Position numbers and translations under genes: made by a program. Positions 1 to 27,203 of a DNA stretch of 40,014 bases are shown piece by piece. The notes under the pieces are model-generated. The model did not search any database and was not told the DNA's origin. It saw only the letters and a program-made list of their open reading frames with translations. Positions within the stretch are counted from its first letter, which is position 1. Every line of letters starts with the position of its first letter. Where the stretch lies: IMG/VR virus record IMGVR_UViG_3300028198_000007, positions 1-40,014 of that record; one strand, written 5' to 3'. The stretch is from a virus.

Positions 1-1403
1 CTGATACATTTAATAACTTCAACAGTTCCTGTATCAATTCACTTGATGGCTTGACCGTACTTAATGATTCTACTGATACTTCATCTGATACATTTAATAA
101 CTTTAATAGTTCCTTTATCAATGCACTAGATGATTTAACAGAACTTAATGATTCTACTGATACTTCATCTGATACATTTAATAACTTTAATAATTCCTGT
201 ATCAACTCACTTGATGACTTGATCGTACTCAATGATTCAGTAGATACCTCATCCGATACATTTAATAACTTTAATAGTTCCTGTATCAATGCACTTGATG
301 ACTTGACAGAACTCAACGATTCTACTGATACTTCATCCGATACATTTAATAACTTTAATAGTTCCTGTATCAACTCACTTGATGACTTGACAGAACTCAA
401 TGATTCTACTGATACTTCATCCGATACATTTAATAACTTTAATAATTCCTGTATCAATGCACTAGATGATTTAACATCACTTAATGATTCAGTAGATACC
501 TCATCTGATACATTTAGTAACTTTAATAGTTCCTGTATCAACTCACTTGATGACTTGACAGAACTCAATGATTCTACTGATACTTCATCCGATACATTTA
601 ATAACTTTAATAATTCCTGTATCAATTCACTTGACGATTTAACAGCACTTAATGATTCTACTGAAGTTTCATCTGATACATTTAATAACTTTAATAGTTC
701 CTGTATCAATTCACTTGACGATTTAACAGCACTTAATGATTCTACTGAAGTTTCATCTGATACATTTAATAACTTCAATAGTTCCTGTATCAACTCACCA
801 GATGACTTGACAGAACTTAATGATTCTACTGAAGTTTCATCCGATACATTTAATAACTTCAATAGTTCCTGTATCAATTCACTTGATGACTTGACAGAAC
901 TTAATGATTCTACTGAAGTTTCATCCGATACATTTAATAACTTTAATAGTTCCTGTATCAACTCACTAGATGATTTAACAGAACTTAATGATTCTACTGA
1001 CACCTCATCCGATACATTTAATAACTTCAATAGTTCCTGTATCAACTCACTTGATGACTTGACAGAACTTAATGATTCTACTGAAGTTTCATCTGATACA
1101 TTTAATAACTTTAATAGTTCCTGTATCAACTCACTAGATGATTTAACAGAACTTAATGATTCTACTGACACCTCATCCGATACATTTAACAACTTCAATA
1201 GTTCCTGTATCAATTCACTAGATGATTTGACAGAACTTAATGATTCTACTGAAGTTTCATCCGATACATTTAATAACTTTAATAGTTCCTGTATCAATGC
1301 ACCAGATGACTTGACAGAACTTAATGATTCTACTGAAGTTTCATCCGATACATTTAATAACTTTAATAGTTCCTGTATCAACTCACTAGATGATTTAACA
1401 GAA
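1..1403 (-). repeat. 84-nt (28-residue) tandem repeat array
   Basis: Sixteen complete 84-nt units occupy 60-1403, and a partial unit at 1-59 continues past the window edge. Each encodes a 28-residue unit reading SLSSVKSSSELIQELLKLLN then VSDEVSVE on the minus strand. Two versions alternate, with VSDEVSVE or VSDETSVE, and a few units carry A, P or G changes. The DNA copies are nearly identical, which suggests recent expansion or gene conversion. Each 28-residue unit resolves into two diverged 14-residue units like those found elsewhere in the same gene. Confidence 0.95.
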
Positions 1404-3157
1404 CTTAATGATTCGGTACTTTTATCTGAGGAAGACATCCTTAATAAAGAATCTTCTGTAAATATGTCTGACGATATTAAAGATAATATGTTTTTATTAA
1501 ATACATCATCAGATTCTAATATATGTAATATATCACTTATATCTATAGTTGATGATTCTAATATACTTAATATATCACCTGTATCTATAGTTGATGATTC
1601 TAATATATGTAATATATCACCTGTATCTATAGTTGATGATTCTAATATACTTAATATATCACTTATATCTATAGTTGATGATTCTAATATATGTAATATA
1701 TCACCTGTATCTATAGTTGATGATTCTAATATACTTAATATATCACCCTTAGTAATGACTGATGATTCTAATATACTTAATATATCACCTGTATCTATAG
1801 TTGATGATTCTAATATACTTAATATATCACCCTTAGTAATAACTGATGATTCTAATATACTTAATATATCACCCTTAGTAATGACTGATGATTCTAATAT
1901 ACTTAATATATCACCTGTATCTACAGTTGATGATTCTAATATACTTAATATATCACCCTTAGTAATAACTGATGATTCTAATATACTTAATAAAGTCTTA
2001 CTACTTATACCCGACAACTCAAGTATATTAATTATATCATCTTTAACTATGGCAAAAAAATCTAATATAGAAATCAATTCACGATTACCAACTGACGCAC
2101 TACTTAACGACAACAAAATCTCAGACTTATTAAATTCTGATGATTCAAAAATATGTAACAAACTTTGATTTACTATCTGATTAGATTCTATGACATCCAT
2201 CAACGCCAATTTATCAATACCAGAAATTTCTAAAACACGAATTATCTCAGATTTTTTGATGTCAGATCCGACTATCAAATCAATCAGTTGGGTTTTGTCA
2301 ACGAGTTTTAAGTCTAATATTTTTAATAAGATTGCAGAGCTGAGGGATAAAGATTGTACATCAGCGATAATGTCAGATTTTGACAACGAGAGCAGGGACA
2401 AAATTGCTGCGTGGATTGTCTGTGGCAGGAATTGGGCATCAAGAGCGGGGGGAAGGGAATCACTATCAACATTTTGGAAATTTAACATCGGGGTGATGTC
2501 GGATTTAGAAACGTCAGATGAAGAAAAAACATTTAACAAATCAGATTTGTCTATGTCAGATGATTCTAATATATTTAATAAATCATCTTTATTAATAGAT
2601 AATGATTCTAATATATTTAATAAATCATCTTTATTAATAGATAATGATTCTAATATATTTAATAAATCACCTTTATTAATAGATAATGATTCTAATATTT
2701 GTATTAATTCGGTTTCAGATATATCTTCACGTGAAACTGTTAATAGTTTTATTAATGTTTGTATTAATTCTGATGTGGGATTAGTATTAAATATCTTAGA
2801 TGTTTTGACAGCACTAAATAAATTATCTACTAGTGATGCACTTGTATCCGGAACATCAAAAATACCAACATTCCACGTTACATCGGTATCGAATATCTGA
2901 AGTATATATGTATTAATAACATTAGTTGGTATATTATTAACTACGAGTTTTAAAGTATCATTATTGTCAATGATAGCAGTATTCCCAACAGAAATGTCAT
3001 TATGAATTAATACACCGTCAGTAAACGTTATATTAACTGAGGTGGACAGTCCGCTAACTATAATAATATCTGATTCAATATCACCAGTACCCGATGGTGG
3101 TATATCTAATAGCTGTATAACATCAGAAAAAATAAATATATCTCTAATATCTGCCAT
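1..3157 (-). CDS. Giant 14-residue-repeat protein, 3' end beyond window
   Basis: The frame is open from an ATG at 3155-3157 to the left edge, at least 1052 codons, with no stop. The start has a good Shine-Dalgarno (AGAGGT on the minus strand, 3163-3168). Residues 1 to about 105 look like a small beta-sandwich (IIIVSGLSTSVNITF ... VTWNVGIFDVPD), a type I associate with phage and surface fibres. From about residue 110 the chain is built of 14-residue units of the form x-x-h-I-x-K-x-D-I-L-x-I-L-E, for example SSVITKGDILSILE. Some units are degenerate, some nearly identical, and beyond residue 580 they are fused into 28-residue units such as SSVKSSSELIQELLKLL. The units probably form short helices in a solenoid or rod. 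It lies directly after the tail-fibre block and has its own late promoter, so I infer a virion fibre or adhesin. I do not recognise the family. Confidence 0.85.
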   Translation of the reverse strand, partial: MADIRDIFIFSDVIQLLDIPPSGTGDIESDIIIVSGLSTSVNITFTDGVLIHNDISVGNTAIIDNNDTLKLVVNNIPTNVINTYILQIFDTDVTWNVGIFDVPDTSASLVDNLFSAVKTSKIFNTNPTSELIQTLIKLLTVSREDISETELIQILESLSINKGDLLNILESLSINKDDLLNILESLSINKDDLLNILESSDIDKSDLLNVFSSSDVSKSDITPMLNFQNVDSDSLPPALDAQFLPQTIHAAILSLLSLSKSDIIADVQSLSLSSAILLKILDLKLVDKTQLIDLIVGSDIKKSEIIRVLEISGIDKLALMDVIESNQIVNQSLLHIFESSEFNKSEILLSLSSASVGNRELISILDFFAIVKDDIINILELSGISSKTLLSILESSVITKGDILSILESSTVDTGDILSILESSVITKGDILSILESSVITKGDILSILESSTIDTGDILSILESSVITKGDILSILESSTIDTGDILHILESSTIDISDILSILESSTIDTGDILHILESSTIDTGDILSILESSTIDISDILHILESDDVFNKNILSLISSDIFTEDSLLRMSSSDKSTESLSSVKSSSELIQELLKLLNVSDETSVESLSSVKSSGALIQELLKLLNVSDETSVESLSSVKSSSELIQELLKLLNVSDEVSVESLSSVKSSSELIQELLKLLNVSDETSVESLSSVKSSSELIQELLKLLNVSDEVSVESLSSVKSSSELIQELLKLLNVSDETSVESLSSVKSSSELIQELLKLLNVSDETSVESLSSVKSSGELIQELLKLLNVSDETSVESLSAVKSSSELIQELLKLLNVSDETSVESLSAVKSSSELIQELLKLLNVSDEVSVESLSSVKSSSELIQELLKLLNVSDEVSTESLSDVKSSSALIQELLKLLNVSDEVSVESLSSVKSSSELIQELLKLLNVSDEVSVESLSSVKSSSALIQELLKLLNVSDEVSTESLSTIKSSSELIQELLKLLNVSDEVSVESLSSVKSSSALIKELLKLLNVSDEVSVESLSTVKPSSELIQELLKLLNVS
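1509..2012 (-). repeat. 42-nt (14-residue) tandem repeat array
   Basis: Eleven clear 42-nt units plus one diverged unit at the right edge. On the minus strand each encodes variants of SSTIDTGDILSILE, SSTIDISDILHILE or SSVITKGDILSILE. The variants are shuffled along the array rather than grouped, as expected from unequal recombination between copies. All units keep the reading frame of the minus-strand gene. Confidence 0.95.
2559..2705 (-). repeat. Second 42-nt tandem repeat block
   Basis: Three nearly identical 42-nt units and part of a fourth encode SLSINKDDLLNILE on the minus strand, with one Gly for Asp variant. They use the same 14-residue pattern as the 1509-2012 array but a different sequence, so this block was amplified independently. 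Confidence 0.9.
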
Positions 3158-3177
3158 ATTTACCTCTTTTATTAATC

Positions 3178-3204
3178 AAAAAAAAAGGGGGTGTAAACAC
3201 CCCC
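3178..3204 (-). terminator. Strong intrinsic terminator after the 2024-residue gene
   Basis: On the minus strand a perfect 7-bp stem (GGGGGTG / CACCCCC, loop TTTA, 3187-3204) is followed immediately by nine T residues (3186-3178). It sits 34 nt past the stop of the 2024-residue gene and 21 nt before the start of the repeat gene. It also lies a few nucleotides downstream of a late promoter box, so it may form the 5' leader hairpin of the next transcript as well. Confidence 0.9.
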
Positions 3205-3221
3205 TCTCTCTACTTTTTATA

Positions 3222-3229
3222 TATTTATA
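3222..3229 (-). promoter_or_regulatory. T4-type late promoter box for the repeat gene
   Basis: TATAAATA on the minus strand, matching the T4 late promoter -10 consensus. It lies between the stop of the 2024-residue gene and the start of the repeat gene. If T4 spacing applies, transcription would start near 3216, just before the hairpin at 3204-3187. Confidence 0.6.
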
Positions 3230-3237
3230 TAAAAATA

Positions 3238-6200
3238 TTATGAAATATTTTTCCTATCAATATTATCAGAATATTCTGGTCTAATAGACCCACCGTTAAT
3301 CTGAACAAAAATCCTCATTCCAGATCCAAATGGTTTAGTTGAATATGTACCAACATATATTCTACGATCTACATGAGATTTCTGATTAAGAACACCAGCA
3401 ACGGTACTATAACCCAATAATGTGTCATAATCCGCAGAAGGTAAATGCCATGAATATGGACTTCTAAATGTCAATTTATCACCATTACCTGAAACCGATA
3501 TCGCCGCATCATCTAAACTAGGATCGGTTGCAAGTGAACTGTGCATTTCATCTAAATCATATTTCTCATTTCCTGATTGTCCAACTTCAGTATATCCACC
3601 TTGTATTGATGAATCCGCACCAGAATAACATATCATATCCATTTCGGAAGCAGGATATATATATCGTTGACTAGCCATTGGTGTTGGAAAATTAAATACA
3701 AATGATTTATCTTGTGTTATTGATAATTGTTCCAAAGGATTAATAATAGCAGGACTATCTATCTGTGGTAATATCGCAGATACATGATAATCCCATGGTT
3801 TTAACACATCAGCCTCACGAACAACAAATCTAAATATACCTTTACCAAACTTATGTAAATCTGTCCAAGAATCTGGCATATCGCGATCTTCTGCAAGTTT
3901 TATCATATAAGAATTTTGTACAGAAACATCTTCTGTACTATAATTCTGATATTTCATAGTGACAATCGTACCATTATCTACTTCATAACGTAAATATAAC
4001 AAATCATTATAATATATATAAGAATTCAATGAAGTTCCTTGGAATGTGTAATCTTGTGGAAATACAACTTTACCATCAACTATAAAATTAACATCACTAG
4101 TTGGTACCATTTCAAGTTCTTGATTATTAACAGTAACTGTCAATCTGGCAAGATCTTTAACTGGTTTTGAGTTATCACCACCCAATCCATATGGATTAAC
4201 ATACACTCCACCATTACCAGCACCTTTCCATTGATATTCAACACCAAACCCAAATACTTTACTTGGACCATCAACACCAACAACTGATTGCTGAATTACT
4301 CCCACTCCGGAAACATCAATTACCGTCAGGTTTGATGTTACAAAACCATCGCTGCTAAATGAAACTCTAATAGACTGAACACCCATATTATCTTGAAACG
4401 TAGTCCAAGTAAATATCCCGGCATTAAAAGCAACACCAGCGTTTTGAATATCAATATTACCGCTCAAGCTTGATATTAATAATTCACTTAACGTTACAAC
4501 ACCATCACCAGCACCAATTACTTCGTGTTGACTTCCATCAAGCATGGTAAACGTGACTTTAATCTCATCGGTTGCCGTCATTACTGTTATTAATGGATGT
4601 GAGGTCAATACCTGTACTGCATTATGAGTACCAACAACAGGATCTACTTTTAATTTAGATAAATCAGAAGTTAATGGATGTAATCTGTCTACATCTAAAC
4701 CAGTTACATTATATGTAGTGAGTGATCCATCAAATTTAATAAATTTTAGATACTCAGATTCATTCAAACTAACCCCACTTTTTGGTACTTGTTTTATAAT
4801 AGTATCAAACATAGAAGGGTTTAGTTCTAATAAAGACGAATTAACAGATGTATTATATTCATCAACAACCAGATTACCACTCCCATCATCCATTGATTTT
4901 AATTCATACACCCATATTCTAAATGGATCTAAACCTTGTATTGCTGGACCTAATTTTTTATAATCCGCAACTGCTAAGTTAACCATCATCACTGGATCAT
5001 AAGAATTGATAATAGCATCATACTTAAATCCAGTTTTACCTATAACACGTTCCATAGTTCTTATAAACTCGCTAGACTGATCTAGATATTCTGGACGATA
5101 ATCAGTTGATCTATCAAACTCTATTTTATGAAGTCCGATTGTGTTAGATTTTGCCTCTCCCACACTGGTTGATGGTATTGGAACTACAAGACTATCCCCA
5201 CCATCTACTGGTGTGGCTGTAAATGTATCACCAACCGCCCAAGTGCCGATAGATCTACTACTGTTCAAACTATCATTGTCTTCTACTGAACGTGACGGAG
5301 CATTCATCCACCATACATCAAACAAAGAAGATGTGGCATCTTTCTTAAAATACGGATTACCAACTGTAGTATCTAAATATTTTGTATTTAATCCGTGAGA
5401 TAATCCAAGACCAACACCATGAACACCACCTTCAGTATGTAATATTTTATGACTTACATCGGAGATAACAGCACTTGGTAATGCTGCAAAATTATAAAGA
5501 ACATCAGAACCAGCATTTACACTGCCATCATGGTAAGAAGAATCCCTAAACTGAGTCCCTTTAAAATATCTACCTGGCACAACACTATTAAGCATAGTTG
5601 TTATATTAACCACAGTCTCTAAATCAACAGAAAGTTTTCTACCAGAAACATCATATATAGCTTCCTCTTGCAACCCCTCAATAGAAGTTAATGTAGAAAA
5701 TTCTGATGCATAAAATGAACCATCTTCACCAGCAACAGCATTTGGTGTTGTTAATACACTCTTAAAAAAGTTTTGACTAACATCAGAAAATTCTTCTGGA
5801 CGTTTTGCTGGACTATATACACAATGAACTGGACTTTTACCATCTTCCATTTCTACCGCACCAGAAGTTTGATCAGCATGTCGTTGTACAACAAACCATG
5901 CATAATCATCATCTTGGTCAATAGCACCCTGATCACCAATAAAAAATGCAGTACCATGATCCGTACATGTCAATCTATATGACATTGGATATGAATTTTC
6001 CACATCAAAGTTAGTTTTACCACGTCTATTAAAGAATGGCTCTTTAACTTTATTACTGTGTGATTTTAAATCATAATGAACTTCACATAATTCGCCTGGT
6101 AATCTAGAACTAGAACCCTTTATACCATCTCTACCTTGAACTCTGGTTAAAGTACCATCTTCTAATATTTGATATGCAGTTGCTACGTATATAGTCAAAC

Positions 6201-9200
6201 TTGCATCAGTATCATTATATTGAAATTTAATTCTCCATTTTTGCGGTTTTCTAATATTAGAAATCGCATGAGGGTGTCCTAAATTACCTGGCAATAATGA
6301 CTTACCTGGAACTATATCTGCAAGTGATGACAATAAATCAGTACCTTTTTCCGAATCAACAATAAAAGTACTACCAATTCTTGAAATAGCGTCAGCAACT
6401 TCAAAATGACTCTGTTGATTGTATGGATAAGGTGTAGGTAAAGGACTATATGTATCAGTAGGAGCTTGTACGACACCAATTGTTTGTCTTCCTGGATATA
6501 CCAGTTGATACGGTTGTGTTTCCAAATCCTCTTCATTTAAAAATATACCCCATTCTCCACTTTCAAACCAATTTGAAGTAGGTCCTGGTGATTTAATACT
6601 AAAGGTGGTAGGTGTTCGCAAATCATTATTTAAATGTTCTACATGACGACTATCAGTACTATTTATATCTCCTTCTGGTCTAAACCCACTTATTATTTCA
6701 AATATAGGTTCTGCCATGAAATCCCTTTTAATATTTGAAATGGAATATTGAAATGCTGATGGAACATATGGAACACTAGAAGTATCACCAGGAACAAGAT
6801 CACCATAAAAATCAATAATTTGAATCTCAGGGTTGGCAAGAATAGCTGCCGCGGTATATGAAGCATCGGGGGTGACTTCATCTGGAATATCAATTTCTGC
6901 CTGATAATCACTATGAAATGGTGATTTTCTAAATGAAACATTAATATCATCAACTAAAGCTTTAATACCAGCACTTGAGTTTTGCCAAGATCCAGGAGTT
7001 TCTTCATATACCGTTACTAATGCAAGACCATCCACCGATAAATCAAAAGTATCAGCACCAGATCCACCAGAAGTTAAATCTGGTATATAATAACGTTTAG
7101 CACTAATATATAATTCATATAATGATGCATCACTGTACGTCACTAACCGACCACTAAGATATCTAAAACTACTTGATTTTAATGGAGTTGTAAATTCTTT
7201 TAATATAGTAACAACCGCAACTTCCTGTGTTTCTGATACTGATTCGTGTCCTACTGGAAGTGTTGTTATTTCTTCATAGTGAACAGTCAAATTTTGTGCT
7301 GACATTGCTAATGGAAAATTACCAGCTTCATCAATAGTTACTTCAATAACTGTATATTTATCTCCATCATCATCAGATACTTTTGCTCTTAAAAGAGCAC
7401 TGGTCGATGTTGGATCATCAGAAGTGACACGAACCGTATAAGTAGTTATCGCACCGGATTCATCAACAGCAGGAACGAATCCATAACCTGCATTTAATAT
7501 ACCACCATTACCAGTAGTGACTACTAATTCTAATAAATTATTCGCAATATTAATATCAAATTCTGGATTTAGTCTAAGATTGGCGGTTGATTCTAATGCA
7601 GTTATAATAGCTTCACCAGCACCACCTCGTTCACGTATTGTTTTACCAACATCGTCAGCCACCCAACTACCAGCAGCACCAATTTCCGAATCAAATGGCA
7701 TATATGCAATTCTACCATTACCCGGAGTTAACTGTGTTAATGCTATACGTGTTCTTTGTTGATTTATTTCTGACCAATTTTCCGTATATCTATTACCATA
7801 TGGGTGCAAACATAAATCGGTTGCCAACTGTTGTAACAATCCATGTTCATATTCTGGATAATCTACAGGATTTATAAAATATTTTAAATCTAATGTTCTA
7901 AAATCTGACTGTGATGTTAAAAATGACACAAATCCAAATGGATGTGACTCTGTTGGATGCGAGAATAAAAATTCACCACCACGATATACATTATCTTGAG
8001 GAAATCTTGATAATGATAATGTACCAGACGATCCACCAGATTTCCCATTAACTGACATAAGTTCTATATCTTGTAATGACACATCTGGTTTCTTTTCTAA
8101 CATAACAGTTCCATAAATATTTTTCTGAATTACAGACCAATCAAAATATGGAGGTATTGTATCATAAACAGTCGTATCATACGACGAACCACCATTAACA
8201 AGGGTTAAAGAAGATCTATCTAAAATGTATCTAGATTCAATGATATCTGGAATATCCGCTCTAATTGACTCAAATGTATCATTAGGTCTTGGATACTGTT
8301 CCCACTGATGTTGACCAGATGGATAACCTGTAAGACAATCCGCCACAACAGTCACATGAGCACCTGTAGTGGGATCCAGAAATTTTGCTTCAGGAACTGT
8401 TGGTGTTGCAGATACATAACAACCAAAAGGTCTTTCATTTGTGGAAGTAAACCCCATAATCTCGGTATTACTTCTAAATAAATTACACATAGGTATAGTG
8501 CCATCAGGATTAACCACCACATTGACTCTAATTCTAGTACCACTTCTATAAACCCCACCAAACCAAGATAAAACATCAGTAACTAATGGATTTTCCCAAC
8601 TCAAAAGAGGTAAAGGGTCACCCACATTAAATACAGTATCATCATAACCAGTACCACCCGTTATTACGAGGGTAGAAGCTGGGTCATACACACTGTTGGA
8701 AGGTATAACACCTATATTTATGTAATATGCTTTAGAAACAATCAAATCCATTGAATTTGATATACTATCTAATACTTTTTTTGCTACATCTTCACCATTA
8801 TCATTAACCAACAATACCGTAGGTGACAATTCAATAATTTGTTCATTTAAAAGAAAATCATTAAAGGGGGTATCTACCGATAACGGTAGATTCGAAATTG
8901 ATTCTTTTGCTAACTCAAAATCATATTCAAATGTTGCGTAATTCTGTTCTATTACATCAAAATTAAATGTGGCATGTGAAGTATTAGTATTAACGGCACC
9001 AGATAAAAATGCACCATCTACTCTTAAATTTGACCAAGTACCTTTCATAGATTTATCAAATAATCCTTCTGTCGTCGCATTAACAGAAGTTATATCATGT
9101 GGTGATCCTGGATTTATTGAAAACACTAACTCCGGCAATTGTGAAATTGTTACTGAATTTAATCCGGTGCCACTTAAAGAAACGTGTTGATTATATCTAG

Positions 9201-9312
9201 GCTCGGTCATAGTTGTAATTTCATTTCTTGCGATAGAAAAACCCGCCGAAACAAAATCATTCCCTAATCCTTTTTTATGTTTTTCTATATTATGTTCTAG
9301 CGAAGTTGCCAT
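3238..9312 (-). CDS. Giant virion/tail-fibre-type protein, 2024 aa (paralog family)
   Basis: Start ATG at 9312 has an AGGAG Shine-Dalgarno and a late promoter box just upstream. The N-terminus (GFSIARNEITTM) matches that of the 1780-residue neighbour (GYSIQRNEIITI), and both carry a D-(L/M)-C-(L/I)-x-PY motif further in. The family central block is near residues 1040-1190: KWRIKF, a GELCEVHYD motif, YPMSYRLTCTDHG, DQDDDYAWFVVQRH, PVHCVYSPAKRP. The C-terminal block is near 1826-1905: FRFVVREADVLKPWDYH, EQLSIT, FVFNFPTPM. About 640 residues of unassigned, probably beta-rich sequence separate the two blocks. No signal peptide or membrane segment is apparent. Context points to a tail or baseplate-attached structural protein; the exact role is unknown. 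Confidence 0.85.
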   Translation of the reverse strand: MATSLEHNIEKHKKGLGNDFVSAGFSIARNEITTMTEPRYNQHVSLSGTGLNSVTISQLPELVFSINPGSPHDITSVNATTEGLFDKSMKGTWSNLRVDGAFLSGAVNTNTSHATFNFDVIEQNYATFEYDFELAKESISNLPLSVDTPFNDFLLNEQIIELSPTVLLVNDNGEDVAKKVLDSISNSMDLIVSKAYYINIGVIPSNSVYDPASTLVITGGTGYDDTVFNVGDPLPLLSWENPLVTDVLSWFGGVYRSGTRIRVNVVVNPDGTIPMCNLFRSNTEIMGFTSTNERPFGCYVSATPTVPEAKFLDPTTGAHVTVVADCLTGYPSGQHQWEQYPRPNDTFESIRADIPDIIESRYILDRSSLTLVNGGSSYDTTVYDTIPPYFDWSVIQKNIYGTVMLEKKPDVSLQDIELMSVNGKSGGSSGTLSLSRFPQDNVYRGGEFLFSHPTESHPFGFVSFLTSQSDFRTLDLKYFINPVDYPEYEHGLLQQLATDLCLHPYGNRYTENWSEINQQRTRIALTQLTPGNGRIAYMPFDSEIGAAGSWVADDVGKTIRERGGAGEAIITALESTANLRLNPEFDINIANNLLELVVTTGNGGILNAGYGFVPAVDESGAITTYTVRVTSDDPTSTSALLRAKVSDDDGDKYTVIEVTIDEAGNFPLAMSAQNLTVHYEEITTLPVGHESVSETQEVAVVTILKEFTTPLKSSSFRYLSGRLVTYSDASLYELYISAKRYYIPDLTSGGSGADTFDLSVDGLALVTVYEETPGSWQNSSAGIKALVDDINVSFRKSPFHSDYQAEIDIPDEVTPDASYTAAAILANPEIQIIDFYGDLVPGDTSSVPYVPSAFQYSISNIKRDFMAEPIFEIISGFRPEGDINSTDSRHVEHLNNDLRTPTTFSIKSPGPTSNWFESGEWGIFLNEEDLETQPYQLVYPGRQTIGVVQAPTDTYSPLPTPYPYNQQSHFEVADAISRIGSTFIVDSEKGTDLLSSLADIVPGKSLLPGNLGHPHAISNIRKPQKWRIKFQYNDTDASLTIYVATAYQILEDGTLTRVQGRDGIKGSSSRLPGELCEVHYDLKSHSNKVKEPFFNRRGKTNFDVENSYPMSYRLTCTDHGTAFFIGDQGAIDQDDDYAWFVVQRHADQTSGAVEMEDGKSPVHCVYSPAKRPEEFSDVSQNFFKSVLTTPNAVAGEDGSFYASEFSTLTSIEGLQEEAIYDVSGRKLSVDLETVVNITTMLNSVVPGRYFKGTQFRDSSYHDGSVNAGSDVLYNFAALPSAVISDVSHKILHTEGGVHGVGLGLSHGLNTKYLDTTVGNPYFKKDATSSLFDVWWMNAPSRSVEDNDSLNSSRSIGTWAVGDTFTATPVDGGDSLVVPIPSTSVGEAKSNTIGLHKIEFDRSTDYRPEYLDQSSEFIRTMERVIGKTGFKYDAIINSYDPVMMVNLAVADYKKLGPAIQGLDPFRIWVYELKSMDDGSGNLVVDEYNTSVNSSLLELNPSMFDTIIKQVPKSGVSLNESEYLKFIKFDGSLTTYNVTGLDVDRLHPLTSDLSKLKVDPVVGTHNAVQVLTSHPLITVMTATDEIKVTFTMLDGSQHEVIGAGDGVVTLSELLISSLSGNIDIQNAGVAFNAGIFTWTTFQDNMGVQSIRVSFSSDGFVTSNLTVIDVSGVGVIQQSVVGVDGPSKVFGFGVEYQWKGAGNGGVYVNPYGLGGDNSKPVKDLARLTVTVNNQELEMVPTSDVNFIVDGKVVFPQDYTFQGTSLNSYIYYNDLLYLRYEVDNGTIVTMKYQNYSTEDVSVQNSYMIKLAEDRDMPDSWTDLHKFGKGIFRFVVREADVLKPWDYHVSAILPQIDSPAIINPLEQLSITQDKSFVFNFPTPMASQRYIYPASEMDMICYSGADSSIQGGYTEVGQSGNEKYDLDEMHSSLATDPSLDDAAISVSGNGDKLTFRSPYSWHLPSADYDTLLGYSTVAGVLNQKSHVDRRIYVGTYSTKPFGSGMRIFVQINGGSIRPEYSDNIDRKNIS

Positions 9313-14765: not shown

Positions 14766-17700
14766 CTATATATTTATATCACTATTAAGTATATACTGCG
14801 AATTACTCAACATAAGCACTCGCATTCCATTATTACCTGTTGATTTTAACCCAACATAAACACGCGAATCCACATTGACACCATCTGATTTATAAATGTT
14901 AATGTTCTCTAAAGCACCATCGGCAACAAGAGAACCAGATGTGAAGGCAAAGATGTCCATGTCCTCGTTTGGGTAAATACATCGTGTTCCCGTTAACCTA
15001 GTCGGGAACTTTATTAAGTAATGACCATTTTTGGTAATCACTTGTTGTTCTTGCGAATTGAGAACGGCATCGCTATCAACACTGTGTTTGGTTGCGGAAA
15101 TGTGTCTTTTCCATGGTATATTCATGCTAGTTTCTCTAACAACATACCTCCAAATTTTAGGTTCCATACTATCTATAATTAATGTATCTTCTAAATCAGT
15201 TTTCAATACTAAGGTGACAACATTACCATCAACATCCGTCATAATCTTATCTACTAAAGAATATGAATTCCCATGAAAATCTTCCAACTCTACTATTTCA
15301 GTATCTATAGTTTGTAAATTGCGAGAAGATTCTGAATAATAAATACCAATATCTGATGGATATATATTATCCTTTGAGCAGAAATATAAACAATGGACAG
15401 GGTGTGTATCAAACACACCATTTCCGTCAGTTATTGGCAATCCAGTAATATTATCTACTGTTAATTGTACAGAAAACCAAGCAAAATCATCATAATCATA
15501 TGATAATGTTTCATGTCCAACATACATTCCAATACCATGTTCAGTCATAGTTAATCTATACGACATTGGATATGCACCAGACATATCTGATATATTTTTG
15601 GGATAACGTTTAAACCAACCATTACCACTTTTCTTATTTCTAACTCTATATGCTCTATCTGTTTCTGGTGGTTCATAATATTTAATTTCTAGATTATAGA
15701 TATTATCTACTGATTCATTATTAGTTAATGAAATTGTATTTACACCCGAATCAAACACATTAAATTGTTCTACATTATTATTTATAGATATATAATTGCC
15801 CAGATCTAATATACCTAACATAATTGAATCCACACTTGGAGTATATATCCCATCCACATCAGACATCAAATATATTCCAATAGCAATAATATTTATATTA
15901 TTAAAATCCTTATTTTCTATCCAATTAGAAAATTCAATCGAAGAAACTCCATTTGCAAAATCGGTTATAACAACTTCTGATGACTCTGATGGTATTTTCC
16001 ATACATTATCACCAAATGATGCAGAATACTTTATATCAGTTCCTGATGGTTTAGTTTCATTAATCGTTAATGTTTCAATTTTATGAACACCCACATTTTC
16101 ATCTAACACCAAAAGTTCTGAAATTAAATATTTGTTATTATATAATACAATCGTATCAACCACAACATCCGATGATTCTGTTACATTTAATGTTATTGCA
16201 TTTACTGATGGTGAATTTGTACTATCTGTGGTAGATATATTTAACCTAATATATAACTCATCTTCTGAAACCCCAATCATATAAGAAGACAATTCAGACG
16301 AATTATTTTTATTTGTCCAAGTACTTCCACCATCTGTTGAAATACCATATTTTATACTAGTCCCAGTTGGTATAGTCTCACCAATTGTTATATTATCAAT
16401 CGTTGTGTTTACCAATGATATCGGTGTGTTAGAAATCACATAATTATCTGCATTTAATGGGTATTCTATAGTCGTACTTACCACAACATCAACAAACTTA
16501 GAAACCTCTAAAATAATATTATCCAATCTGGGGGTATGAATCATATCCCCACTCACAAATACTGCCATAATATCTAATGTATTATCTATAGATATACCTA
16601 ATGTATTGTTGCTAGGTTCAATAAAATCATATGACAGTAAATACGATCTAAGTTGATTAGAATTCATCCCATACTCTTTAATATCTTCTATATCTACCGA
16701 CCCTGCAAAATTATACCAACTATTTCTTTGATCAGAAGAAATAATATAACGTATATATGTGCCAGTATAAATATTTTCCTCAATAACAACACTGTCTATT
16801 GACGTTACATCCTGTAATGATATAGATATTAATGATTGAATAACCCCCTCAGATGAATACATTATAGACGTATTACTGACATACTCATTGGCAAGACTTT
16901 TATTTAATATTATAGAATTTACTGAAGGTGTAATTGAACCATCACTACTTAAATATATAGCTATATCAAACTGATTTATATTACTAACATCATATTCATG
17001 TAACCAATTAATCATGTCTGATGAACTAACTCCATTTGCAAAATCAGTAATAATACCATCAGGGGTTGTCCAATTAGACTTCTCATCAAATGATACTGAA
17101 TATTTTATATCAGTACCAAGTGGAATAGTTTCGTCAATTATTATATCATTAATATATGCCATAGTAGATAATGATATAGAATTAATTGTATACATCACAC
17201 CATTAAGAGAATAACTGACATTAGTGCCCACAATAATATCATGTTCTTTTGTCATTTCAAACAATATATTTGTCAGTTCAGAAGTTGATCTATTATCTAC
17301 TGTAGATAATTCTATTTCAACATTCATATATTCTTTACTATTTAAATCATTAATAAAACTGTCACTCATCAAATATGATTCAAATGTTATCATATCATAA
17401 TCTACAGTAGCATCATCATCAAATGAAATACTAATCGTTATATTACTTTTATCTGGTTGATTCTCATATGAAAGAAATGCATTACCAACCGATGTGATAT
17501 TAGATATTAATATTGGTTCATGTTTCATAACACCAGTATTATATACATTAACTGTTTCTGTAAAGGCTATCGGGATTTCATATAAATCTAAAGAAAAATT
17601 ACTAATAGTTGGTGTTTTAGTAACATCTGTGGTAGATAGTTTTATATATAAATAAAACGCATCATAAGCACCTTGATTGTTGGGATCCCCAAACCAGCTG

Positions 17701-20700
17701 TCGTCATCTAACCCGTTATATGCGGGTAATATATATCCATTCGGATTACCATCCATAACTGTTTGGACGAAATTACTGACAGTCAGATGATATGTTCTAT
17801 ATGAATCATCGTCCCAAGTAAAAAACCCAATATAATTAATGGCAGTCCCATCTGGAATATCTTTTGCTAATAATATATTATCGTAACGGTCTAGACCGTT
17901 AGTATTTAAAAGACTACTTATACCAGAATATTTAACAATTACTAGAGTTTCAGTTGGGTATTCAAGTTGTTCCCCAATAACAACATTTGTTCCATGTTGG
18001 ACTTTAAATATTATAGAATTTACGGATGGAGTAATCGTTGTATCGCTGTTCATCCTAATTCTGATACGTATAGGTATAGAATTATCCAAATCTACATCTG
18101 GATGATACGTATCGAAAAAATCAGCAAAATTAAAAGAATTCATTTCAAAGGAATTAACCCCGACACTGCCAACACCTGACGGAATATACCAATCGCCATC
18201 ATTAAAAAATTGAAGACAATATAATATAGAAGTTCCAATGTGGGTGGTATCATCTATTATTATTTGATCAATAATTGCAAGATCAGGAATAATCAATGGG
18301 ATTATTGATTCAACAACAAAGTCACCATTAGGATATGATATATGTGCAGGTATACCAGGTATTAATTGAGCATACAGTGAAAATGGACTTGAACTAAAAC
18401 CACCGCTAGGCAAAGTGGGACTGTCGTGTAATCTAACTTGCAGATTGGTATCGTCTTTCATATGGAATATTCCAACCCAAGAAATATCAAAAACTAAAGT
18501 ACCTTGAACATTTACAGAACTGCCATCGGTCTGATAGATAATGCCATCATATCGCGTATGGGTAAAAAACATTCGCGTATTACTTGAATTCACTTTCAAA
18601 AGGTAGTTCACAACCCAAAATTGGTTATCACGGGTAGTAATCATATACGTATCAGCACCATCAATATTATATTTCGTATCGATCCCCCCCGTACCGCTAA
18701 CAAAACTGTCGATACCCTGCTTCATTATGTTATCATAAATTTCAAATGAATGTTTATAGTGGCCGAGCATATCCCAAGTTTCGGGGGGACCAACTAAAGA
18801 AGTATCCGTTTTTAAATATTTACCACCAACAACAGGATCATAGTTTATATCGACTGTAGTGTCTTGAGTGGAACCCCAAACTATAAAATCACTGATACCT
18901 GCATAGTGGGATGCGTGGAACTTTTTATACGTGTTTTCCTGAAAAATCCAATGTGTATAAAAACGACCACCTCCTGTGAAATTGCCCCAATAGGTGTAAA
19001 TCTGTGACCTAGCGACCCTTGTTTCAACGGATCGGGCGCCCGAAATAAAACCAGAGAGATTGACTGTTCCCAAGTAGACTCGATTATTGTAGTCGTTATT
19101 ATGTCCATAAACTTTATGCCAAGTTCCAATCATACCATTGTAATCATCAACGTCTTTGGCACGAAACCCGTTGTTCATATTGTACCAAGTTATACCTGAT
19201 ATCGATACGGGAGTAGGAAATTGTAAATATATACTACTATTTCCATTTCCGTTGCCACAGCAAGGCCAAGAAAAACTTAATCCAGAAACACCTCTGGGGT
19301 TCTTTTTACTCCATCTTTGATAATTTCCCCTAATTATTTTGGTAGTTGGTATATTGTAAAGGGCAGTTGTGGATTGTCCATCAACGAATAGTGGACTAGC
19401 ATCATATGGCTTATAATGATACCCGTATTTATGTACAACAAACCCCTTTGTTCCTGAACCATACACACAAGAAAATCTACCACCAGAAAATAAAACAATC
19501 GACTGATTATTACCTATACGTGAACGAATATCCTCAATAAGTATCGACTCATTAACACTGACACCAGATCCGGCTGTGTAATGATCATGGGCATGAAAAT
19601 GGCGTCCCATAGAATATAATTTAAGTGGGCGGGAATTATTAGGGGAAGAAGGGTGGGCATCAGTAACAACAAACCACGTTCTTTCTTTTACAAGAGATAT
19701 AAATATAGGATCATATTTAAACACTTGTTTTTCTCTACCTTGTGCCCTATAACCCCATTGTTCCCAAGTATAATGTATATCCTTAGTATAAGACCCCACC
19801 GGCATCTTTGGTTTTCTCTGAAACCAACTTACTTGAAATGGACCATCAGCATCTGTATAAATTTTCATGATATGATCGTTATCATATGAAAGTTGTTGAT
19901 AATCATTGTTACCACACCATAACAACGATTCATAGTTGTTATTGACACTTTTATTTAGCATAGCTAAATTACGCATCTGGATGATAGTCCCATCTCCGCC
20001 TGCCCATACATTCTGAATTCCATACCAACCGGTTACCTCATCAAAATCCTCAGAGTTCTGAGGATGAGATACACTCCAAAAATTTTGAGAATAACTTAGT
20101 CTCCGACTCTTTTCATCTTTAGATGGCATACCATCTGGCACATATGCAAACCCAAGTTGTCCTGAAGTATTCTTTCCAGTTCCATATAAAGTATAATCCG
20201 AAGAAATTGCTAATAAATGTTTATCACCACAAGCAACTTTTCTAATATTTGTCTTTGATAACTTCCAATCTGAATAACTAACTGAATTATTATGACCTAA
20301 TCCTAATTGACCCTCATCATTCTCACCACGAACATATAAATTCCCATTTTCCAATAACATCACCTGAAACTCTAATCCAGATTCAAGTTGTAATATTTTT
20401 TCATTTACATCTATTGCTGGTATCTCCGGGATTTCTTCATTATATGTTCCTAATTTTGATAACACCCCATCATCCACACTAAAGTCTTCATTTTCATCGT
20501 GACCAAAATTAATTTTATCAAATGACCCCCACGTAGTATTATCAATTGCCGCCGTATATTGTGTTTCTAGTATATCCGTCATCACTCCTTTTAAGGAAAT
20601 ACCATTATCATCCCTAGTTACTGCACCACCATTATAAATCACATCAACTGAATTCATATTAAGGGTAATATTTGCTGAATTGATATTATAGTCTGTAACC

Positions 20701-22211
20701 TCTGTAGAAACACCCTTTAAAGAAACAACACCATTTGTTATATTAATGTTATCCGAAATGAATGTCCATTTTGAAGAATCACCAAAGTCAAAATTTAAAT
20801 TGCTTGAACTATACTGTGTTTCAATATCATTAAACACTTCACTAGTTAATGTTGCAACTCCATTATTAATAATGTTTGTTGATGTCCAATCATTTAGATT
20901 ATCAAAATCCCAAGTTATACTAGATGGTATATATTCTATAGAATATTCTTCTACTATACCACTTTTTAATTTAACAGAACCATCACTAAATTCTATATTA
21001 ATAATATCATATGACCAATCTGAACTATTATCGAATGTCCAATTAACGGGGGTTGTTGGTAATGACTGAGATTCTATATTTTCTATTAATTTAGTTTTTA
21101 ATTGAACCGACCCATTTATAATTTCAATGTTATCGTTTGATAATGTCCAATCATTGGGATTATCAAAATTCCATACATTATTAGCACTTGACGTATATTC
21201 TACTCCCATAACATTTTCAATATTAGGTTTTAAATTAATAGAACCATCATTAAATTCTATATCATCTTCAGAAAAAATCCACATTGAAGGATCAAAGGAT
21301 TCCCACCCACGATTCAACTCATTGTATATATACTTTTGTATATAATGCAATTTTCTATTATTATGTGGATTATTAATATCTATATCAACAGTAGTGCCAG
21401 CTGAAACATTTATATCATTTATATTTTCTGTTGGTGAAATGGGTGTTTCTTCTGATGTCTGTGGTAATTGTCGATACGATAATATATCTTCAAATATCAC
21501 ATCTACTAATTGACCATGTGTCCTAACTATATCTCTATTTTTGTGTTGTGTTTGGTTTTCTGCACCACCTATTGTCCCATCATTAAATAATTGAAAAGAT
21601 GTGGCATTATTGACCTTTAACCACCCGTACATTGGATTAGGAATACCAACATCAAATTCCCACGACTCTGTTAAAATATCATTAAAGATATATCCTGGGT
21701 GATTTGTTATTTTTTCTTTTAATTTGTAGTTAGAATCTGAAATGGAATTCCCAATTTCATATGTTGTATATAACAATGAAGTTAATTTGAGATTTAATTG
21801 GTATAGTTCTTCCGCGAATTCTACATCATCGAAATATAATCGTTCTCTTTCATCAAATTCTAATCGCATTCGCCAGACTTGACCGAACATCATTTCATCT
21901 GTAGATTCTAAGACAATAACATGTTGTTTAAAGTCACCGTCAACAATATTAGTAAAATTGGCAGTACCGTCATATCCAGTTGCTGGATATATTAGATTGA
22001 AATATTTCTTTGTTATTAAAGTATCATCTTCAATATTTCGTAATTCATTACCTTCTTCTTTATTACCATTATACATCTGCCAATCTTTAGTCAAATCATC
22101 GACTAAAGATATTAACAGTGATGGAACACTTACATATCCATTATTTGAATTTGATATACCATAATGAGTTAAGTCATCAAGTGATATTGTATTATTATTA
22201 AATACCGACAC
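14766..22211 (-). CDS. Giant multidomain virion protein with RCC1-like propeller, 2481 aa
   Basis: It starts with GTG at 22211, 6 nt after the 783-residue gene. The start is supported by N-terminal similarity to that paralog (TIS..L..YGIS) and a shared WRMR(L/F)EFDERERLY motif. Order of parts: N-terminal family region (1-300); about seven W-x-FD...DW...G-x-V-x-LK repeats of about 42 aa (300-590); RCC1-like propeller repeats (about 604-930: NLYVRGENDEGQLGLG, LYGTGKNTSGQLGF); a discoidin-like segment (about 975-1125: IYLQFPTPVSISGITWYN); seven modules of about 120 aa ending in TPSVNSI-type motifs (about 1300-2147); then the family blocks YPMSYRLTMTEHG (about 2212) and WRYVVRET...PW (about 2354). 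It is probably a large tail or baseplate-attached adhesive protein, likely translationally coupled to the preceding gene. Confidence 0.85.
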   Translation of the reverse strand: MSVFNNNTISLDDLTHYGISNSNNGYVSVPSLLISLVDDLTKDWQMYNGNKEEGNELRNIEDDTLITKKYFNLIYPATGYDGTANFTNIVDGDFKQHVIVLESTDEMMFGQVWRMRLEFDERERLYFDDVEFAEELYQLNLKLTSLLYTTYEIGNSISDSNYKLKEKITNHPGYIFNDILTESWEFDVGIPNPMYGWLKVNNATSFQLFNDGTIGGAENQTQHKNRDIVRTHGQLVDVIFEDILSYRQLPQTSEETPISPTENINDINVSAGTTVDIDINNPHNNRKLHYIQKYIYNELNRGWESFDPSMWIFSEDDIEFNDGSINLKPNIENVMGVEYTSSANNVWNFDNPNDWTLSNDNIEIINGSVQLKTKLIENIESQSLPTTPVNWTFDNSSDWSYDIINIEFSDGSVKLKSGIVEEYSIEYIPSSITWDFDNLNDWTSTNIINNGVATLTSEVFNDIETQYSSSNLNFDFGDSSKWTFISDNINITNGVVSLKGVSTEVTDYNINSANITLNMNSVDVIYNGGAVTRDDNGISLKGVMTDILETQYTAAIDNTTWGSFDKINFGHDENEDFSVDDGVLSKLGTYNEEIPEIPAIDVNEKILQLESGLEFQVMLLENGNLYVRGENDEGQLGLGHNNSVSYSDWKLSKTNIRKVACGDKHLLAISSDYTLYGTGKNTSGQLGFAYVPDGMPSKDEKSRRLSYSQNFWSVSHPQNSEDFDEVTGWYGIQNVWAGGDGTIIQMRNLAMLNKSVNNNYESLLWCGNNDYQQLSYDNDHIMKIYTDADGPFQVSWFQRKPKMPVGSYTKDIHYTWEQWGYRAQGREKQVFKYDPIFISLVKERTWFVVTDAHPSSPNNSRPLKLYSMGRHFHAHDHYTAGSGVSVNESILIEDIRSRIGNNQSIVLFSGGRFSCVYGSGTKGFVVHKYGYHYKPYDASPLFVDGQSTTALYNIPTTKIIRGNYQRWSKKNPRGVSGLSFSWPCCGNGNGNSSIYLQFPTPVSISGITWYNMNNGFRAKDVDDYNGMIGTWHKVYGHNNDYNNRVYLGTVNLSGFISGARSVETRVARSQIYTYWGNFTGGGRFYTHWIFQENTYKKFHASHYAGISDFIVWGSTQDTTVDINYDPVVGGKYLKTDTSLVGPPETWDMLGHYKHSFEIYDNIMKQGIDSFVSGTGGIDTKYNIDGADTYMITTRDNQFWVVNYLLKVNSSNTRMFFTHTRYDGIIYQTDGSSVNVQGTLVFDISWVGIFHMKDDTNLQVRLHDSPTLPSGGFSSSPFSLYAQLIPGIPAHISYPNGDFVVESIIPLIIPDLAIIDQIIIDDTTHIGTSILYCLQFFNDGDWYIPSGVGSVGVNSFEMNSFNFADFFDTYHPDVDLDNSIPIRIRIRMNSDTTITPSVNSIIFKVQHGTNVVIGEQLEYPTETLVIVKYSGISSLLNTNGLDRYDNILLAKDIPDGTAINYIGFFTWDDDSYRTYHLTVSNFVQTVMDGNPNGYILPAYNGLDDDSWFGDPNNQGAYDAFYLYIKLSTTDVTKTPTISNFSLDLYEIPIAFTETVNVYNTGVMKHEPILISNITSVGNAFLSYENQPDKSNITISISFDDDATVDYDMITFESYLMSDSFINDLNSKEYMNVEIELSTVDNRSTSELTNILFEMTKEHDIIVGTNVSYSLNGVMYTINSISLSTMAYINDIIIDETIPLGTDIKYSVSFDEKSNWTTPDGIITDFANGVSSSDMINWLHEYDVSNINQFDIAIYLSSDGSITPSVNSIILNKSLANEYVSNTSIMYSSEGVIQSLISISLQDVTSIDSVVIEENIYTGTYIRYIISSDQRNSWYNFAGSVDIEDIKEYGMNSNQLRSYLLSYDFIEPSNNTLGISIDNTLDIMAVFVSGDMIHTPRLDNIILEVSKFVDVVVSTTIEYPLNADNYVISNTPISLVNTTIDNITIGETIPTGTSIKYGISTDGGSTWTNKNNSSELSSYMIGVSEDELYIRLNISTTDSTNSPSVNAITLNVTESSDVVVDTIVLYNNKYLISELLVLDENVGVHKIETLTINETKPSGTDIKYSASFGDNVWKIPSESSEVVITDFANGVSSIEFSNWIENKDFNNINIIAIGIYLMSDVDGIYTPSVDSIMLGILDLGNYISINNNVEQFNVFDSGVNTISLTNNESVDNIYNLEIKYYEPPETDRAYRVRNKKSGNGWFKRYPKNISDMSGAYPMSYRLTMTEHGIGMYVGHETLSYDYDDFAWFSVQLTVDNITGLPITDGNGVFDTHPVHCLYFCSKDNIYPSDIGIYYSESSRNLQTIDTEIVELEDFHGNSYSLVDKIMTDVDGNVVTLVLKTDLEDTLIIDSMEPKIWRYVVRETSMNIPWKRHISATKHSVDSDAVLNSQEQQVITKNGHYLIKFPTRLTGTRCIYPNEDMDIFAFTSGSLVADGALENINIYKSDGVNVDSRVYVGLKSTGNNGMRVLMLSNSQYILNSDINI
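14771..14778 (-). promoter_or_regulatory. T4-type late promoter box (distal), inside the 3' end of the 2481-residue gene
   Basis: TATAAATA on the minus strand, overlapping the last codons of the 2481-residue gene (NSDINI, stop). The wider sequence TAATAGTGATATAAATA is identical to that around the promoter box upstream of gp8 at 39979, which favours a functional element over chance. Confidence 0.5.
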
Positions 22212-24920: not shown

Positions 24921-27203
24921 CTACGCCTCTCTCCTACATAATATCATATTACTATATTTAGGTGTAATTGAAGTAGCAGATACTGACCCAGTTAATCCAA
25001 CATACATTCTGTGATTGTGAGAGTGTCCAGAACCAGCATTACTACCTGAGGCGCTAAAACTGTGGGAATGTGACCCTGCATTGGTTGTACTACCACTGAT
25101 ACTGTGAGTATGGTCGCCTGCTGGTCTTATAGTATCTTTCCAATCTTCTAAAAGGAATTCCGCATCATCGGGATATGCGCCAAGTCCATCAATTTGACCG
25201 TATTTACTAAAGTCTTGACGATTATTAGCATAAATTTGGTGTATATGACTCCCTGCTGTGTTTGCCGTGGCGGATATTGAATGAGAATGTGATCCAGCAC
25301 TAGTACTTGAAACACTTACCGAATGACCATGACTCGGCAACTCCGCGATAGACAAAGCATGACCATCGGTTGACCCATTAACCTGAAATGTGTGTGGGTG
25401 TGTGTGGTTAAATATCTCCGTCGCGTGCATTGTACCACTAGTCTGACCACCGCCACGCTGAGTTGATACCCTCAATATAGAATCGTAGACATGAACCGCC
25501 TTACCATCAATATCATAACCTTGCGTTACCAATGTCCACCCGCTAGGTACAGTCGATTGGTAAAATAACATAGTTGTACCATTCCTAAAAGTGTTAGCAT
25601 TTACATAACTTGTTATCTGTGCATTAATATCTGGTTTATTTGAAACATTCGACCAACTAACATCATGGTGGTGTGTTTGTATTATTGTAGTAATATCATC
25701 TTTTATAAATTGAACTCTATCATCTAATGCACTTATATCACTCTTAACATTATTAAATTTAGCTATCTCATTAAGGGCGGATGATGTATATCTGCCATCC
25801 TCAGAAACCCCTATCGATAACTGAGTTGCAGTAAGACGTGTTTCAATATCTGATGTATAATCACGGTCACCCTGTCTAGTTGAAAATAAGTCAATAAATT
25901 TAGAATCATATGATTGCAATACGGTGTACTGATATTCATCACTAAACTTCTTTAACTTTTCATCTATCCTATGTATGTCATCCTTTATAACATTTCCAAT
26001 TGCATATACATTATCAGAGTCAGATGTATATACTCCATTATCACTTAACCCTATATTATCACGAATTACACTAATATGATTAAGGGTATTAATATGCCTA
26101 TCATTTAAATCAAATGAATATCTATCACCACGTTCTCTTGCGATTTTAGCTGTATTTAATTCTGTATCATGTCTATCATTTAATGATTTTAATTTAATAT
26201 CTATATAATTTATATCACTACCAATATTATTGGTAGTTGCATATATATTATCAGAGTCTGATCTATATACACCATCATCATTTAACCCTATATTATCACG
26301 AATTACACCAATATGATTAAGAGTATTAATATGTCTATCATTTAAATCAAATGAATGTTTCTCAACTTGTGCTATTTTATTATATACATATGTGGATTCT
26401 GTATCATGTCTATCATTTAATGATTTTAATTTAATATCTATATAATTTATATCACTACCAATATTATTGGTAGTTGCATATGTATTATCAGAGTCTGACC
26501 TATATATACCCCCATCACTTAATCCTATATTATCACGAATTACACTAATATGATTAAGAGTATTAATATGTTTATCATTTAAATCAAATGAATGTTTCTC
26601 AACCTTATCAATATAACGTTGAAGAGATTCGACTTCTATGTCATGTCTACCATTTAATAACTTTAAGTTAAAATCTAAATCATGTATATCATTACCAATA
26701 TTATTGGTAGTCGCATATGTGTTTGTACCCCAAAAATCTGATAAATATACTCCATCATCATTTAACCCTATATTATCACGAATTACACCAATATGCACAA
26801 CAGTACCATTATATCTATTATTCAATTCTTGTAAAAACACATCAACCTGATGTAAACGTGAATCTAATAGATTAATATCGGTTTTAATATTGTTTGAAAT
26901 ACCATAGAACCTGGTATTTCCTGATTCGTAAATACCAGATTCTGATAATCCTGTATGTATAAAGGCATCATTTTGTCTGCTAGTCAGTTGTTGTATGTTA
27001 ATATCATTCTGATAGACATATTCATAGGTTTCATTAATAGAAAGCACCATGTTCTCTTTTTCATTTGTTCTTAGACTTGACCAATCACCAAACAATTCTT
27101 CTATATATTCGGAATGATCTTTCATTTCGATAGTTTTTATGCGCCATGCATTAAATGTGTCAGTTATTAAAATATCTGACATTTCTGGATAGATAACACT
27201 CAT
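24921..27203 (-). CDS. Short-tail-fibre-like protein with His-x-His tip, 760 aa
   Basis: ATG at 27203 overlaps the upstream TGA (ATGA), with a TTGGAGA ribosome-binding site. Residues 1-60 (TDTFNAWRIKT ... GDWSSLR) match the N-terminus of the 841-residue fibre (TDTFDDWKDKT ... GDWNGLR), the kind of base-attachment start I associate with T4-like cyanophage fibres. Residues about 95-510 hold a repeated shaft motif (IRDNIGL..DGVY), four copies of which are 79-81 residues apart. From about 538 (TTMLFYQSTVPSGW) it becomes a collar/receptor-binding tip with many HxH motifs (HTHPH, HGH, HSH, HIH, HSHNH; about 598-733). In T4 gp12 such HxH motifs bind metal in the trimeric tip. Likely role: host-binding fibre. 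Confidence 0.85.
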   Translation of the reverse strand: MSVIYPEMSDILITDTFNAWRIKTIEMKDHSEYIEELFGDWSSLRTNEKENMVLSINETYEYVYQNDINIQQLTSRQNDAFIHTGLSESGIYESGNTRFYGISNNIKTDINLLDSRLHQVDVFLQELNNRYNGTVVHIGVIRDNIGLNDDGVYLSDFWGTNTYATTNNIGNDIHDLDFNLKLLNGRHDIEVESLQRYIDKVEKHSFDLNDKHINTLNHISVIRDNIGLSDGGIYRSDSDNTYATTNNIGSDINYIDIKLKSLNDRHDTESTYVYNKIAQVEKHSFDLNDRHINTLNHIGVIRDNIGLNDDGVYRSDSDNIYATTNNIGSDINYIDIKLKSLNDRHDTELNTAKIARERGDRYSFDLNDRHINTLNHISVIRDNIGLSDNGVYTSDSDNVYAIGNVIKDDIHRIDEKLKKFSDEYQYTVLQSYDSKFIDLFSTRQGDRDYTSDIETRLTATQLSIGVSEDGRYTSSALNEIAKFNNVKSDISALDDRVQFIKDDITTIIQTHHHDVSWSNVSNKPDINAQITSYVNANTFRNGTTMLFYQSTVPSGWTLVTQGYDIDGKAVHVYDSILRVSTQRGGGQTSGTMHATEIFNHTHPHTFQVNGSTDGHALSIAELPSHGHSVSVSSTSAGSHSHSISATANTAGSHIHQIYANNRQDFSKYGQIDGLGAYPDDAEFLLEDWKDTIRPAGDHTHSISGSTTNAGSHSHSFSASGSNAGSGHSHNHRMYVGLTGSVSATSITPKYSNMILCRREA
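25985..26890 (-). repeat. 237-nt fibre-shaft repeats
   Basis: Four copies of a 79-81 residue unit in the 760-residue fibre. Copies of the DNA encoding VIRDNIGL lie at about 26047, 26284, 26521 and 26764, spaced 237, 237 and 243 nt. More diverged copies of the IGL..xGxY motif extend on both sides. Confidence 0.9.

Follow-up and report, generated by a model that had tools for sequence, protein, structure and literature searches.

The window analysed here is the whole of a linear contig of 40014 bp, as given in its IMG/VR record. A repeat-protein gene runs off its left end on the minus strand. The features of the locus are as follows.

2..3157, minus strand: repeat-protein gene, ATG at 3157, 1052 codons, free of stops up to the contig end, 3' end missing
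2846..3157, minus strand: Ig-like beta-sandwich head, residues 1-104, AlphaFold2 pLDDT 70-88 for about residues 21-100
1520..2695, minus strand: 14-residue array, residues 155-546, 28 consecutive units, zero indels, register unbroken
1436..1519, minus strand: transition between the two arrays, residues 547-574
2..1435, minus strand: 28-residue array, residues 575-1052, 17 units (2 x 14), DNA period of 84 bp, leaving the contig
2..2168 (frame 3..2168), plus strand: open antisense frame of 721 codons spanning the array, most likely no gene
3163..3167, minus strand: Shine-Dalgarno box AGAGG, identified from the sequence, 5 nt before the ATG
3180..3211, minus strand: intrinsic terminator of the upstream gene, a hairpin closed by a T run, -20.8 kcal/mol, z = -4.95
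3222..3229, minus strand: T4-type late promoter motif TATAAATA, on the upstream side of the terminator
3238..9312, minus strand: upstream neighbour of 2024 aa with a C-terminal phrog_12249 domain ('tail sheath' in PHROGs), conserved beside the repeat gene

Orthologues of the repeat gene were found in two other IMG/VR contigs, at L002:17049-18098 (head 68% identical) and L003:15182-15988 (head 42% identical). Both lie directly downstream of an orthologue of the window gene 3238-9312 (67% and 51% identical, respectively). The three loci share the upstream gene, the terminator and the head, and the 14-residue arrays are individual to each. Searches with several queries for a full-length relative yielded only these two truncated contigs. 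All three contigs terminate within the repeat array. Short reads unable to bridge such an array would have this effect, and such genes would escape notice in short-read assemblies for the same reason.

The first-pass annotation had described a minus-strand frame open for at least 1052 codons with a ribosome-binding site, a preceding terminator and a late promoter. The frame indeed contains no stop between the ATG and the contig end. The ribosome-binding site and the terminator were likewise confirmed, and both recur in the orthologues: a similar AGAGG box is present in L002 and GGGAG in L003, and the terminator hairpin is kept at both loci (z = -5.40 and -3.43, respectively). The promoter stands only in part, as the motif TATAAATA is present, but lies before the terminator and is missing from the matching place in both orthologues. 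The same motif precedes the ATGs at 3157, 9312, 14717 and 39926 by 26-65 nt (motifs at 3222, 9356, 14743 and 39979, minus strand) and recurs before the L002 and L003 orthologues of genes 9312 and 14717. The window as a whole contains no more copies of it than chance would give; what is notable is its placement before genes.

The genes upstream on the same strand encode a baseplate wedge protein (phrog_438), fibre-like proteins and a 2396-aa protein of phrog_358, a family common in T4-like cyanophages. Region 3238-24569 encodes four consecutive giant proteins (2024, 1780, 2481 and 783 aa), each with a C-terminal phrog_12249 domain. The PHROG label of this domain is probably wrong. Pfam finds no sheath domain in these four proteins and the true sheath gene of the isolated phages is separate from the phrog_12249 genes, so that 'tail sheath' is used here as a name only. 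This is a late, virion-structural neighbourhood, the baseplate and fibre block of a myovirus, and the data support the repeat gene as a real, conserved, late-type member of it. Two other structural genes of the window carry repeats of their own: the 2481-aa protein (14766-22211) contains RCC1-type beta-propeller repeats (PF00415, PF13540) at residues about 559-779, and a 237-bp tandem repeat in 3.3 copies (26000-26795) lies inside a tail-fibre gene whose product ends in a His/Ser-rich, collar-like region.

The repeat protein is of very low complexity, acidic and free of cysteine. The consensus of its first array is L-E-S-S-x-I-D-K-x-D-I/L-L-S-I, with positions 1, 6, 11, 12 and 14 fixed as hydrophobic. 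The periodicity at lag 14 is strong even in the most diverged part, residues 127-378 (z = 12.5 against shuffles). The second array is built of a different unit, SSSELIQELLKLLNVSDEVSVESLSSVK, which retains the 14-residue register. TRF reports 42-bp arrays and one 84-bp array of 16.8 copies with 89% matches. Thus the earlier description of the protein as almost nothing but 14-residue units holds for residues 155-546, which fit the pattern I/V-x-K-x-D-I-L-x-I-L-E, but not for residues 575-1052 with their distinct 28-residue unit. The orthologues have 14-residue arrays behind the head as well, of the unit ILESSGIDNKDLLS in L002 (lag 14, z 12.4) and ILESTTLSTIDLSS in L003 (lag 14, z 11.8). L002 then passes from its own array into the same 28-residue unit as the window, SGELIQELLKLLNVSD. 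The unit has been homogenised separately in each lineage, consistent with growth by unit duplication.

Between the 84-bp units, the minus frame has 62 synonymous and 22 non-synonymous codon differences; the corresponding ratio for the plus frame is 54:34. Amino acids are kept while synonymous sites drift, a sign of purifying selection on the 28-residue units. The head is conserved on the minus strand in two independent contigs, with no corresponding frame there on the plus strand. An antisense frame of at least 700 codons survives 9.8% of synonymous-codon reshuffles of the array, so the openness of the plus strand is unremarkable and needs no explanation of its own; as an argument against a plus-strand gene this figure is suggestive, not proof. 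Most likely, the open frame on the plus strand is only a by-product.

The search for further relatives of the repeat covered IMG/VR, 84,980 bacterial and archaeal genomes and 50,697 phage records, and found none. Searches against Pfam, PHROG, NCBIfam, PDB and the phage records yielded no relative beyond low-complexity artefacts. DNA patterns of the 14-mer and the 28-mer matched only the contig of L002 in IMG/VR, besides two unrelated single matches; in bacterial genomes they gave 21 single matches, and those translated (L021, L026, L029, L033) are not repeats. Head searches of the genome contigs and phage records gave no match. Neither did megablast and tblastn runs against phages with the entire protein, a result to which low-complexity masking may contribute. 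Several candidate matches were rejected. The ENT domain (PF03735) reaches 68 bits in total, but its best stretch covers 29 of the 71 positions and recurs along the array, so that repetition inflates the score. Matches of the arrays to Pfam HTH_DeoR and WD-like_fungi, to PHROG families and to designed repeat proteins in PDB are artefacts of repetition or composition. Pfam showed no match to TPR, ANK, PPR, HEAT or PUF, whose units are 30-40 residues long against 14/28 here. According to the first-pass annotation, no described phage fibre family is known to have this unit. In this respect it holds, as the unit matches none of the searched families; however, the gene is no orphan, and its architecture has counterparts.

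The first of these concerns the small beta-type head, whose earlier description proved correct: AlphaFold2 models it as an Ig-like sandwich, and it is conserved in L002 and L003. No solved relative was found by sequence, and a fold search of PDB with the first model gave generic Ig-like matches only, none at E <= 0.001. In BFVD the top match of the head model is a nameless viral protein of 1330 aa, apparently NCTB BN7874_240 as judged by its length. The first 19 matches include proteins of JA11 (1320 aa), SNUABM_5 (1315 aa) and PaBG (925 aa).

Proteins with the phrog_12249 domain were found in the jumbo phages NCTB, Lu11 and HRDY3 and in Erwinia and Dickeya jumbo phages. In the isolates the phrog_12249 gene is adjoined each time by a gene for a 'hypothetical' protein of 990-1433 aa (1330-1433 aa in NCTB and Lu11). 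This adjacency was checked in NCTB, Lu11, HRDY3, AD1, Yoloswag, JA11, Yen9-02 and PaBG, and for the window gene 3238-9312. The counterparts of the repeat protein are as follows.

NCTB: BN7874_240
Lu11: gp244
HRDY3: XDJ15035
Dickeya phage AD1: gp149
Yoloswag: gp148
JA11: gp140
PaBG: O152_gp224

A head profile was built from the three metagenomic proteins (window, L002 and L003). In whole-genome searches it matches the counterpart in Lu11 (E 4.4e-5) and NCTB (E 0.006); AD1, Yoloswag, JA11, Yen9-02 and PaBG gave no direct match. Conversely, a profile of the isolate domain run against the window, L002 and L003 matches only the three repeat proteins (E 2.5e-4, 3.8e-6 and 1.1e-3). Reciprocal profile searches gave E = 1.4e-4 for NCTB BN7874_240 and 3.1e-4 for Lu11 gp244. 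Alignment of the head with the isolate domain by hhalign gave P = 2.9e-8 and 95% probability, somewhat biased because the isolate segments were picked by eye, which does not affect the whole-genome searches with the head profile. By these profile matches, NCTB BN7874_240 and Lu11 gp244 contain a domain homologous to the window head. On weaker evidence, an Ig-like domain is present in HRDY3, AD1, Yoloswag and JA11 (isolate profile) and in PaBG (fold match, no profile match).

The sequences behind this domain are periodic as well. The period is 15 residues in Lu11 (z 9.8), HRDY3 (z 7.2) and PaBG gp224 (z 10.8) and 16 residues in AD1 (z 5.2) and Yoloswag (z 5.9). The signal is borderline in JA11 (z 3.1), significant only in a sliding scan and ambiguous overall in NCTB, and not significant in Yen9-02. 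Among the strongest 14-18-residue signals in a scan of 170 ORFs of these loci, proteins at this position occur disproportionately often, although a few further fibre-like ORFs, as well as frames antisense to repeats, score too. No mention of a 14-16-residue periodicity in these proteins was found in the literature searched. Further repeats were seen in individual proteins. An 18-residue repeat of the type SQLSEQVLIRE precedes the Ig-like domain in Lu11 gp244 (L005) and in HRDY3 (L006), at residues about 750-900 (z 6.8 and 8.1). PaBG O152_gp224 (L012:41898-44870) contains, at residues about 713-907, some 13 units of 15 residues with a conserved A-x-Y/V start, perhaps a fibre shaft of beta type; no report of these units was found in the literature.

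The isolate proteins are not full-length orthologues of the window protein. They have large N-terminal regions before the Ig domain (discoidin-like or Gly-rich in Lu11 and HRDY3, as read by eye), whereas the window protein starts directly with this domain. Their repeats are shorter, irregular 15/16-mers, as opposed to the long regular 14/28-mer arrays of the window, with which they share the period, not the sequence. The repeat sequences also differ among the phages, and the PaBG units look more beta-like. The C-terminal part of the isolate proteins, about 70 residues, ends in GG, whereas the window, L002 and L003 contigs stop inside the repeats. In Lu11 and HRDY3 the order of the phrog_12249 gene and the repeat gene is reversed compared to the window. 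We propose a single family, defined by an Ig-like head and a shaft of 14-16-residue repeats. Of the cases seen, the window protein is the longest and most regular, and it represents an extreme form of this unnamed family that is specific to its lineage. The type of gene is already present, unnamed, in known phages; the repeat unit itself is new to the searched families.

AlphaFold2 places one 10-residue helix in every 14 residues of the first array, with a break every 14 (pLDDT about 40). In the 28-residue array, helices of 11 and 8 residues alternate per 28 residues, giving a helix-turn-helix unit (pLDDT 37). As pLDDT over the repeats is 37-45, the packing of the repeats is not given by the model, and the model of the 28-residue array was left out of the fold search. 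Short helices in each unit are therefore a low-confidence prediction. The new rod or solenoid fold suggested in the first-pass annotation is plausible but unproven.

One alternative is a fibrous shaft of a different type, in which the 14-16-residue repeats assemble into an oligomeric beta structure or a coiled coil and not into stacked helices. The shafts of adenovirus fibres are an example: there, 15-residue repeats form triple beta-spirals. The 15-residue period of Lu11, HRDY3 and PaBG and the alternation of Y/V with polar residues in the PaBG units are consistent with beta structure, 14 and 28 are multiples of seven as in coiled coils, and the helix prediction, made for a monomer, is of low confidence. 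However, the period of the triple beta-spiral matches Lu11 and PaBG, not the window, whose units are predicted (with low confidence) to be helical. They also read as an amphipathic helix, with hydrophobic residues at i, i+1, i+3 and i+4, and the hydrophobic moment of the segment SELIQELLKLLN is maximal at 100 degrees. A continuous coiled coil is disfavoured by the break between the predicted helices every 14 residues. For the window protein we consider such a shaft unlikely.

The protein might also be a non-virion one, a fibre-assembly factor or an intracellular scaffold encoded in the structural block by chance. Helical repeat proteins often serve as binding scaffolds, and a terminator separates the repeat gene from the upstream gene. 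On the other hand, the place downstream of a phrog_12249 gene is kept in the three related contigs as well as in NCTB, AD1, Yoloswag, JA11, Yen9-02 and PaBG. Moreover, an Ig-like head is a typical feature of phage surface proteins, and the very low-complexity, acidic, Cys-free composition also speaks against this role, which seems quite improbable. It is hardly credible that part of the array arose in assembly, or that the plus-strand frame is the real gene: all three contigs end in the array and 721 plus-strand codons are open, but the many synonymous changes between units are not those of one collapsed unit, their ratio to non-synonymous changes favours the minus frame, and the orthologues retain that frame behind the conserved head with different 14-mers.

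On balance, the gene probably encodes a fibre or appendage protein of the virion of an unclassified, probably jumbo, myovirus, consisting of an Ig-like head and a rod of stacked short-helix repeats. The data establish the gene, its repeats and coding strand, the orthology, the head homology and the locus, and the short helices are a low-confidence prediction. We infer the rod shape, the location in the virion and a function in adsorption or as a tail hair; the display on the virion, which the first-pass annotation had also proposed, is suggested by gene context. Most likely, the Ig-like head attaches to a tail component of a nearby gene or caps it; it would serve as a joint to the tail or as an oligomerisation knob. 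Both kinds of unit would fold as short amphipathic helices stacking into a long rod. The number of repeats would set the rod's length, and unit duplication together with selection on the protein would maintain this length. Beyond the contig end, a C-terminus for receptor binding or capping would follow.

Some data on virion proteins are available for PaBG. The virion band gp261 has a mass of 35.2 against 34.8 kDa in a match to O152_gp225 (PMC7412058). Given the neighbouring band numbers and the mass, this band is probably the phrog_12249 protein O152_gp225. The homologous gp224, of about 108 kDa, is missing from the visible bands of the PaBG virion table (PMC7412058). PaBG gp215, the 'long tail fibre' found in virions, was considered as a homologue and rejected, as by coordinates and mass it is O152_gp271, encoded beside the true sheath.

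Hairy-tailed Myoviridae include the Lu11, Y3, JA and AD1 phages, and the proteins of the hairs are stated to be unknown (PMC6143709). The same is stated for the hairy tail of the Rak2-like phage CBB (PMC5259590). Several phages with the homologous locus belong to the hairy-tailed group, whereas the window phage is known from sequence alone. One possibility is that the proteins of this locus are the tail hairs of hairy jumbo phages, and that the window shaft is a new, minimal alpha-solenoid built of 14-residue helix units, with the number of copies setting the hair length. This prediction is rather doubtful, and a baseplate-borne fibre would fit as well as a tail hair. Still, the locus provides a concrete shared candidate family for the hair-like appendages of several jumbo phages, to which no protein has been assigned (PMC6143709, PMC5259590). 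Its marks are the Ig-like head, the shaft of 14-16-residue repeats and the phrog_12249 neighbour, and the isolates in question are Lu11, AD1, JA11 and Yoloswag.

The units of known alpha-solenoids are 30-34 residues long in ANK, 34 in TPR, 31-36 in PPR, about 40 in HEAT and about 36 in Pumilio (PMC11514114). The window protein has tandem short helices, as predicted, in common with these families, and differs from them in a unit of 14/28 residues compared to at least 30 and in giving no profile match. If the 14-residue helical unit folds as predicted, it is about half as long as the known alpha-solenoid units and would be a simple natural ruler for rod length.
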